Shown piece after piece: positions 49,301 through 52,300 of a stretch of 64,000 nucleotides of DNA. The stretch covers positions 124,001 through 188,000 of the forward strand of contig NW_024881620.1 in assembly GCF_019059575.1 (NCBI RefSeq). Reading direction: 5' to 3'. Each line of letters starts with the position of its first letter. Position 1 is the first letter of the stretch. The DNA comes from Amphibalanus amphitrite (lineage: Eukaryota; Arthropoda; Thecostraca; Balanomorpha; Balanidae). The position numbers and the translations under genes are program-made. The notes beneath the pieces are model-generated. The model was not told the DNA's origin and did no database searches. It saw only the letters and a list, made by a program, of their open reading frames with translations.

Positions 49301-52300
49301 TTGGGCGTAAAATGACGCCAGCAGTCGGCGCGCCCTAAAGCTCCAATAAACAATTATTTTTTGTTTGCGGTGTTGCATTGTCACATTTATTACAAAGATT
49401 AAATCAGTATAACTAGGTTATCAAATAATCATGTTGCTCATATGGTAATTACGTGCCATTGTTACAATGATGCGATGTGCACTTGCCGTTGTGTGAGCTG
49501 ATTGTCACCCCGCTAACTTTGCAACCCCGTCCGTTATAGCTTAGTGTGCTTGTGACGCCCTATACGGTACCCCTGCGTACCCAGTCAGTTTGAATGGAAT
49601 GCTTTTATCAGCCGCCACTTCGTTGTTCTGTCTTGTCAGTGCTTCCCACTGTTGTTTTCGCTTCCACTGCTATTTCTACCGAGTTAGGCCGGCGTCCCGT
49701 CCTCTTCCTGTCGCGTTCTTTCGGCTCCTGTACTTGACCCCTGAAACCCTGGCCACTGATAATAGCTCTGACCCCGGACCTGACCCGCTCGGCCTCGCTA
49801 GCCTCAAATTGCCGAGTGCTGACCACAGACGCTCCAGCCTTTCACTTTCGATACCCGTTTCTCGTGAATATATCTCATAGTAACGTCATGGCATCAAATC
49901 GCCTGGTTGCACCTTAAGATCTTTTGATGAGATCGTAGTGCCAGCGCCAACTTTTCGACCAGAATATTCATGTTCAAATTGCTACAGTTTCTAACTCGCC
50001 GGATGGACTTCATTGCATTCATAATTCAAGATTACCCCAGGGCACCTCCGGGTGTATAGTGCATACCTCAACCTTGGGCTTCTATCGATCCCACTGCAAG
50101 CGGGCATGGCTTCGTGTTCTTCCGATATCACCATCACCTGTTCTTGTTTCCTTCTCCTGCTCCCTTCTTCCTTCGCCTTTCCCTGGCCCTGGCCGGCATG
50201 CCTGCCGCCCGCTCTGCGCACCTCTCCCTGTTCTGTCCGCTGGGCGCCGTGTCGTGTGCTGTGCTGCATGGTGTGCGCTCTGCCCGTGTGCCGCACCGTC
50301 CCTCCCCGAGCCGCGGCGCTGACCGTGCCGCCGGCGCGGCGCGCACCACCCCAGATCTGGCAGTGTGGCGGCCAGCTGGAGATCATTCCGTGCTCGCGTG
50401 TCGGACACGTGTTCAGGGACAAGTCGCCCTACTCCTTCCCGGGCGGCATCAGCAACGTCATCGTCAAGAACGCCGTGCGCGTGGCGGAAGTGTGGATGGA
50501 CAAATGGCGAGACTTCTATTATGAGATGAATCCAGGTACTGCTGCAGTGAGAGCGCCGCGGGTGCCGCGGGTGCCGCGCCCAGTGTAGTGCTCGATAGAT
50601 GGGCGGGATGGGCTAATGACGGCGGTGGTTACTAAAGAGGACAGGGAACTAACCAACACAGGTGGATTGGAGACAGGTAAGTGAGCATGCTGCTTTGGTG
50701 TTCCCAGCTGCCTGCATGCTTGCCTGCTTGCTGTTTATGAGCGCTTTCTTGCATGCCTCTATCCTAACTTTGACTGCAGCAGCTGCTACGTTATGCTGGC
50801 TAGCTGTTAACCTTCGCCAGCCGTCTGGCCTGCTAGCAGCTATCCGTAGTGACTACTCTAGGGATAGTCGGTGGGCGGGCGGTGTAACCTCCGCCCCACT
50901 AACCGGCCGTCGACGGGCAGGTGTGGATGTGCGGCGGCACGCTGGAGATCGCGCCCTGCTCGCACGTGGGCCACATCTTCCGCAAGTCGACGCCGTACTC
51001 GTTTCCTGGCGGCACGTCGCGTATCGTCAACCACAACAACGCCCGGCTAGCCGAGGTGTGGCTGGACGACTGGAAGGAGTTTTATTTTTCCATTAACCCA
51101 GGTGTGAGACTCGGCGGGTCGTGAGACGGCGGCGGCGGCAGCGGCGGCGGCGCGACGGCTGGAGGCGCTGCCGATCGTGTGTTGGATACACGTGAGGCAG
51201 CTCTGCGTAGTTGAGAGTTGAGATAACTCTGAGCAGAGGCGGAAGGCGTGGTCAAGTCGGAATATTAGCATGAAGTTCCGGCCGCCGCGCCGCGCCGCTG
51301 CCGCCGTTCGCTGTGCTCTCTGTAGCAGGGCTGCTGGTCAGTCATAAAGTAATTGAAAATCTGTTTTTGCTTGCGTACCTACCGGTTTGTCTCATGAAGC
51401 CACAAAATGTTTTCGATTTGGTTTATTTGTTCCTGCTGTGACCAGTAGACTCTGCTGAAGAGATGGTTGCTAGCATTAACATGGTGATGGCAGTGGTGAC
51501 TTCCAGAACGAAATATGACTCTGGTCAGAGACGGTCATAGTCTGAAGTGTGTGATGACTACTAACAAGTTAGTGCAACAAGCCTGAGTAGCGGCTATGCG
51601 AAGCTAAGATTACTAATATTTCACTGAGAACGCCTAATATTTGCTTGTGCTGGCTGGCATTGGCGCATAATAACCACTAACGTATTGTCAGTTCCATACC
51701 AGTGGAGCGAAAATGCAACTTTGTTTGGTTGGTATGCGAAACAGCAAAGGCATTTCTATACCTACTGTTGTTTCTGTGGGTGGTGACATTTCTGGTAAGT
51801 GCGGGTAATAATGGACAAAGTATTCAGGCATTTTGAGATGCATTATTCACTGCTGCAGTTCTATGTACAATGTACATAGTTGATAGTTCTCCAGTTATAC
51901 AGTCCTTCTCATGAACGTTATGTTGTATAATTTTGTACATTATAAATGATACATTCTGGAAAAGTAGCTTATCTGTGCATCCTCATTTTGCACTAGTACT
52001 TTCATGTTTCACCTATTTTTATAGCAGGTCATATAGTGCAGAGCAGGCTGGTCTTCTTAAATGGAGTCCGACTTTTACCTCCTACGCCCGACTATTTTGG
52101 ATACTTTGTAGATCGCCATGTCCGCAAGGTCTGGTCGACCTTTCTATCTGACCGGTCGTCTTATCTGACCATCTGTCCCATCTCATCAACGTTTCTATCT
52201 AACCGACCGTCCCCATCTCAGGCGCGCGCAATGTAGAAATGGGCGACGTCAGTGACCGCCAGGAGCTGCGAAATCGACTGCAGTGCAAGTCCTTCCGCTG

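Follow-up and report, generated by a model that had tools for sequence, protein, structure and literature searches.

A probable crustacean ortholog of Drosophila pgant5 with a predicted mutually exclusive exon pair spanning the catalytic loop

Introduction

In Drosophila, PGANT5 is the ortholog of GalNAc-T1, and the pgant5 gene, unlike GalNAc-T1, gives rise to two splicing isoforms, A and B (named as UniProt Q6WV17-1 and Q6WV17-2), which differ at residues 398-457 (PMC12776162, bioRxiv December 2025). Within the exchanged segment the loop reads D419-K420-S421 in PGANT5A and K419-S420-T421 in PGANT5B. According to the same report, PGANT5A is predominant in salivary glands and the knockdown is partially rescued by PGANT5A only, the exchange of residue 419 alters how the enzyme acts on mucin repeats of positive charge, with a clear effect for Sgs1 and a smaller one for Sgs3, and the D/K residue sets the preference of the fly enzyme for positively charged mucins. 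An Asp at the loop site is also described there for PGANT8 and PGANT1, and the authors propose that PGANT5A evolved for Drosophila salivary mucins (PMC12776162).

Other systems resemble this one to a lesser degree. In the A and B forms of Drosophila pgant9, splicing likewise alters the charge near the active site and the choice of substrate, but the swapped exon belongs to the alpha repeat of the lectin domain and not to the catalytic loop (PMC6115407). Tandem duplicated exon events are listed for the family of GALNT13 (vertebrate), Pgant5 (fly) and gly-5 (worm) (PMC9741552), a likeness at the level of the gene family, as the relevant passages name no specific exon; pgant5 also appears in a table of the splicing section of PMC3385985. 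In GalNAc-T2, H359 binds the metal, and the flexible loop formed by residues 362-373 opens and closes during catalysis (PMC4432651). A literature search that was not exhaustive found, by paper title, no crustacean pgant5 isoform, and a word search of PMC5740500, PMC3228551 and PMC7954323 turned up none of the family terms that were used.

Results

The gene

We analysed a window of 64,000 nucleotides of the barnacle Amphibalanus amphitrite (contig NW_024881620.1, positions 124,001 to 188,000), in which position 1 is the first letter. Its + strand carries one complete polypeptide GalNAc-transferase gene with eleven exon positions, the seventh of which exists in two copies, 7a and 7b (Table 1); the preliminary description of this DNA had numbered the pair as the seventh exon, which is correct once exon 1 is counted. 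By conceptual splicing the protein has 599 residues with either copy. The putative start codon is the first ATG in the open frame that spans 815-1369, and near the N-terminus exon 1 encodes what looks by eye like an anchor-like hydrophobic stretch, a candidate type II membrane anchor.

In a 454-residue construct made with 7b and without exon 1, Pfam recognises Glycos_transf_2 (6.4e-38, residues 14-198) and Ricin_B_lectin (1.7e-28, residues 327-443), which is the order of GT-A catalytic domain and ricin-type lectin domain of GalNAc-transferases (GT27), and the DxH motif for Mn2+, the WGGEN motif and the second metal-binding His are found as DAHCE in exon 3, WGGENLE in exon 6 and VGH in both 7a and 7b. 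Among solved structures, of which fly PGANT5 is not one, the closest match to the 454-residue part from exon 2 onwards is GalNAc-T1 (1xhb, 705.7 bits), the next distinct enzyme being Pgant9 (502.5 bits), followed at lower scores by 6s22 (436 bits) and T2 (435.9 bits). The 60-residue pieces of 7a and 7b searched alone gave no Pfam match, and tRNA and Rfam scans of the window gave no match.

Two other features of the window were noticed by eye: a long near-perfect inverted repeat with arms of about 100 nt in intron 8 (~53220-53515), and a 648-codon open frame that runs to the end of the window (62056-63999) and resembles the reverse transcriptase of a non-LTR retrotransposon.

Table 1. Exons and splicing-related features of the GalNAc-transferase gene in the window
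Feature	Position	Strand	Remarks	Basis
Exon 1	935..1368	+	ATG at 935; stem; ends in phase 2	open reading frame and donor CGG/GTGAGT
Exon 2	24815..24981	+		reading frame, AG/GT sites, GalNAc-T1 alignment
Exon 3	34793..35000	+	DAHCEC (DxH metal motif)	AG/GT sites, GalNAc-T1 alignment
Exon 4	36901..37011	+		frame and splice sites, GalNAc-T1 alignment
Exon 5	46911..47010	+		frame and splice sites, GalNAc-T1 alignment
Exon 6	48855..48932	+	WGGENLE; phase 0 out	frame and splice sites, GalNAc-T1 alignment
Exon 7a	50355..50535	+	loop R-D-K-S; likely counterpart of the fly PGANT5A segment	sequence; PMC12776162
Perfect consensus 5' splice site CAGGTAAGT (CAG/GTAAGT)	50674..50682	+	in the 7a-7b intron; the sole one on both strands of the window	
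Exon 7b	50921..51101	+	loop R-K-S-T; likely counterpart of the fly PGANT5B segment; GalNAc-T1-like	sequence; PMC12776162
Stop codon if 7a and 7b are both included	51094..51096	+		conceptual splicing
Exon 8	52222..52361	+	phase 1 in	frame and splice sites, GalNAc-T1 alignment
Stop codon if 7a and 7b are both skipped	52234..52236	+		conceptual splicing
Exon 9	53799..53897	+	lectin domain	frame and splice sites, Pfam, GalNAc-T1 alignment
Exon 10	54314..54448	+	lectin domain	frame and splice sites, Pfam, GalNAc-T1 alignment
Exon 11	54747..54893	+	includes the stop codon 54891-54893	frame and splice sites

The exon pair and its frame logic

The preliminary description had interpreted 7a and 7b as mutually exclusive exons that swap the catalytic loop, and the coordinates and measurements given there were all reproduced: both copies are 181 nt long, begin in phase 0 and end in phase 1, and encode segments identical at 35 of 60 residues, with the GH metal ligand and PYSFPGG in common and with the contrasts RDKS/RKST and CSRVGH/CSHVGH between them. 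Further divergence, which it had described for the next 15 residues, shows as 9 of 12 differing residues at GalNAc-T2 positions 373-384, after FPGG. At the DNA level 116 of 181 positions are identical, and the differences fall 21/14/30 on the three codon positions. In 20,000 pairs of 60-codon segments drawn at random from the window's + strand, the highest count was 14 identities, so the resemblance of 7a and 7b is not due to chance.

The length of each exon is not a multiple of 3, and the frame is indeed shifted, as had been claimed, when both or neither is used: early stops arise 382 nt (double inclusion) and 362 nt (double skipping) upstream of the last junction (Table 1). By the usual rule, a stop that far before the last junction marks an mRNA for nonsense-mediated decay, and both faulty products should go that way because their frame is broken. 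An inactive splice site in one copy, which had been raised as an argument against exclusive use, was looked for, and all four ends are canonical, with AG acceptors and GT donors. Length and phase, the failure of the frame, the presence of both exons in two haplotypes and the match to fly pgant5A/5B all fit the mutually exclusive reading, and from the sequence we infer exclusive use of 7a and 7b in this animal.

Comparison with fly pgant5

The swap covers the same 60-residue span as in the fly, and when its first residue is set to fly residue 398, position 22 becomes 419; 7a then has the D-K-S of PGANT5A and 7b the K-S-T of PGANT5B (PMC12776162). Orthology of the exons rests on the nine isoform-specific positions whose residues are printed in the text of that report, where 7a equals 5A at five and 5B at one, and 7b equals 5B at six and 5A at none. 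Both pairs have A/N at 437, N434 is shared by 5B and 7b, and M455 by 5A and 7a. The barnacle differs in that 7a and 7b are identical at 430, 456 and 457, the last being Pro in both, whereas 5A has Thr; this Thr/Pro contrast at 457, which matters for function in the fly pair, is not taken as defining exon orthology. Tissue use and kinetics are known in the fly only (PMC12776162). An Asp at the loop site also occurs at two other loci of the barnacle genome (FRDFHPY) and is thus not unique in itself, so that what counts is the triplet in combination with position 437 and with the pairing of the exons. Judged by these sequence features, 7a and 7b are most likely the orthologous exon pair of fly pgant5A/5B.

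What the swap changes in the enzyme

The exon 7 segment corresponds to residues 367-426 of the 599-residue enzyme and to GalNAc-T2 342-401 (342 being the first matched residue in the full-length chain), and it holds, in GalNAc-T2 numbering, H359, F361, R362, the flexible loop and the helix I-turn-helix II. 7a and 7b agree at H359, F361, R362 and Y367 and in the FPGG stretch, and because the four named residues are common to both, both forms should stay catalytic. The copies differ in the loop at 363, 364, 365 and 373 and beyond it at 377; at position 363, which directly follows R362 and is residue 388 of the barnacle enzyme, 7a has Asp where 7b has Lys. The net charge of the loop alone is +1 in 7a and +2 in 7b, and that of the whole 60-residue segment is +1 in 7a and 0 in 7b, i.e., not lower in 7a. 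The differences show no enrichment at positions in contact with substrate or metal: of the nine tested (359, 361, 362, 363, 365, 367, 373, 377 and 396 of GalNAc-T2, PMC4432651) four differ, against 25 of 60 overall.

Splice signals

Among 11 acceptors compared, those of 7a and 7b are the poorest in T (0.00 and 0.06, the next being 0.17), which would suit regulated exons; in pyrimidine content exon 4 (0.56) lies below 7a (0.61). Among ten donors 7a scores lowest (4 of 7), and 7b, with 5, is tied with five others. The intron between the two copies measures 385 nt, which is too long for steric exclusion. No exclusivity-enforcing RNA structure stood out when seven flanking pairs were compared with 300 dinucleotide shuffles: the share of shuffles at least as stable was 0.11, 0.17 and 0.07 for the stretch upstream of 7a paired with three downstream stretches, and 0.21, 0.64, 0.34 and 0 for the remaining pairs, the pair scoring 0 (51102-51200 with 51270-51330) forming a local hairpin downstream of 7b with no exon inside it. 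On the other haplotype, for which two of the pairs were repeated, the shares were 0.12 and 0.25. The putative frame fail-safe is the only enforcing device visible at this locus. The perfect donor CAGGTAAGT between 7a and 7b is intact in the second haplotype, with one difference between haplotypes in the ~70 nt around it. Together with an upstream CTAAC...CAG it could mark the boundary of a 15-nt in-frame microexon or serve as a decoy donor, and it could also be there by chance.

Preservation in two probable haplotypes

A search of the genome (807,550,619 bases in 2,644 contigs) finds the locus twice, on the contig of the window (C123) and on a second contig (C126). Each carries both exons in the same order and with identical protein sequence, the starts of 7a and 7b being 566 and 564 bases apart. 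As most members of the family sit on paired contigs, C123 and C126 are taken as haplotypes and not as a recent duplication. The two differ at 3 of 181 positions in 7a and 2 of 181 in 7b, all five changes being synonymous. The introns differ more, with 34/375 between the copies, 78/1343 in intron 6 and 102/1095 in the intron after 7b (6-9%; Fisher P = 1.5e-6 for the exons versus the intron between them and 4.4e-7 versus all three introns).

Some observations made elsewhere in the assembly may be recorded here. On the mitochondrial contig C2644 the gene order, with the protein genes identified by eye, points to a balanid barnacle; it fits the description of Fistulobalanus albicostatus, whose mitochondrial genome is given as 15,665 bp with 70.6% A+T, nad1, nad4, nad4L and nad5 on the light strand and a control region that separates srRNA from trnI. 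A mitochondrial nad4 frame (C2644 ~7300-7800, L030) contains by eye a stretch of ~127 codons twice, perhaps an assembly slip. The crustacean neurohormone family (PF01147) has 13 matches in the genome; two contigs, probably two haplotypes, each carry a pair of matches that face each other, at distances of 2.6 and 3.1 kb (C241:215052-217856 and C789:305631-308916; L032-L035).

Relatives and origin of the duplicate

With 7b as query, the genome search gave 24 matches at E <= 0.001; only C123 and C126 have two matches each, and no third copy of exon 7 was found. Eighteen further contigs (L011-L028; 8 contig pairs and two single contigs, ~10 other loci, with the matches on C55 and C753 left out), read over ~3 kb on each side, showed no second full exon copy, and one scan with the 7b query confirmed no relatives in viral contigs. 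At L028 (C1032) the acceptor and first 16 codons (IWQCGGSILWVPCSRV) are repeated 77 nt apart (2766-2813 and from 2843), which is a partial tandem exon duplication at another GalNAc-transferase locus.

The closest paralog of exon 7 (L011 3106-3291 and L012 3137-3322, on C936 and C341) is 62% identical to 7b, has two additional residues directly behind the loop (FPRKGGVGG) and shows a single copy of the exon in the 6.5 kb read. GalNAc-T1 (PDB 1xhb, 8v9q), the best structural relative, matches 7b at 40 of 60 residues and 7a at 36 of 60; 7a further matches T2 at 38/60, 6s22 at 37/59 and a T2-like segment of the barnacle genome at 40/60. As 7a resembles T1, T2 and 6s22 at least as much as it does 7b, it may stem from a duplication that predates arthropods, or it may have changed faster. 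In a tree of 14 segments of ~60 residues the branching is not resolved and 7a and 7b are not grouped; forcing them together costs 8.25 log-likelihood units and is not rejected (AU p = 0.185), nor is the grouping of 7b with T1 (AU p = 0.376) or of 7a with T2, the T2-like paralog and 6s22 (AU p = 0.358).

Capture of an exon from another paralog, a question that the short tree cannot decide, is disfavoured by two features: a phase-1 exon end after Asn-Pro, shared by 7a, 7b and L011/L012 and by eye absent from the other paralogs inspected, and W392 (GalNAc-T2 numbering), common to 7a, 7b and L011 and found in none of the others compared. N400, also common to these three, counts for little because 6s22 has it as well. 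The sequence comparison thus favours an origin of 7a and 7b by duplication inside their own gene.

Discussion

We consider it highly probable that this gene is a crustacean ortholog of Drosophila pgant5 with a conserved mutually exclusive exon pair. Splicing would pick either 7a, the PGANT5A-like copy, or 7b, which resembles PGANT5B and GalNAc-T1, and would thereby exchange a segment that holds the catalytic flexible loop and the helix I-turn-helix II along with H359, the third ligand of the metal. The Asp of 7a or the Lys of 7b after R362, with K-S or S-T as neighbours, would shift the choice of acceptor according to charge, so that the Asp form prefers mucin-like substrates with positive charge, and the use of both exons or neither would break the frame and lead to nonsense-mediated decay as a fail-safe. 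For the barnacle itself, we infer that both isoforms are made, that the choice between them is exclusive and regulated, and which kind of substrate each would serve. The preliminary description had suggested that splicing here retunes the active site; the fly ortholog is already known to behave in this way (PMC12776162), and the idea is, accordingly, not new. Its chosen precedent, the lectin-domain isoforms of Pgant9, has to give way to fly pgant5A/B, which is closer.

Some features of 7a might suggest that only 7b is normally used and that 7a is a copy in decay or seldom spliced in, namely the lowest donor score of the ten and an acceptor tract devoid of T. We nevertheless regard this as very improbable, for 7a keeps its frame, its splice sites and its catalytic residues, carries the loop triplet of fly 5A, and differs between haplotypes by three changes, all synonymous, against 9% in the adjoining intron. 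It seems very unlikely, too, that the pair chiefly controls expression through decay-targeted mRNA arising by double inclusion or skipping, with the residue swap as a secondary matter. Such a role would agree with the position of both premature stops well upstream of the last junction and with the apparently unused perfect donor between the copies, yet a poison device would work without a second, conserved copy that has its catalytic residues intact and a fly-like charge switch.

An assembly artefact or a confusion of alleles could in principle have produced the second copy, given that the assembly appears to hold both haplotypes as separate contigs. We give this almost no credence: both contigs have both exons in the same order and at nearly the same distance (566 and 564 bases), and the DNA of 7a and 7b is identical at only 116 of 181 positions.

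The loop swap itself is already known in fruit flies, and the new point is the age of the switch. The same D-K-S/K-S-T pair in a barnacle dates the switch to the common ancestor of insects and thecostracans, unless these residues arose twice in the same duplicated exon; the switch thus probably has a very long history, with an origin unrelated to the salivary glue of flies. If the worm gly-5 event concerns the same exon, the switch would even be ecdysozoan. If an ancient switch is true, the proposal that PGANT5A evolved for Drosophila salivary mucins (PMC12776162) would be wrong about the origin, and a fly-specific story would become an evolutionary one, in which the charge switch predates salivary mucins and was later co-opted by them. 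The barnacle pair moreover uncouples two traits that are linked in the fly, as the Asp loop is present and Pro is kept at 457, and it therefore offers a way to ask whether charge preference is set by the loop alone. On balance, we lean towards the view that the Asp/Lys loop switch is ancient and pancrustacean in origin and older than the glue of flies, providing many arthropods with a regulated form of the enzyme that acts on positively charged O-glycoproteins; in the barnacle, 7a would serve basic secreted proteins, for example those of the adhesive cement.
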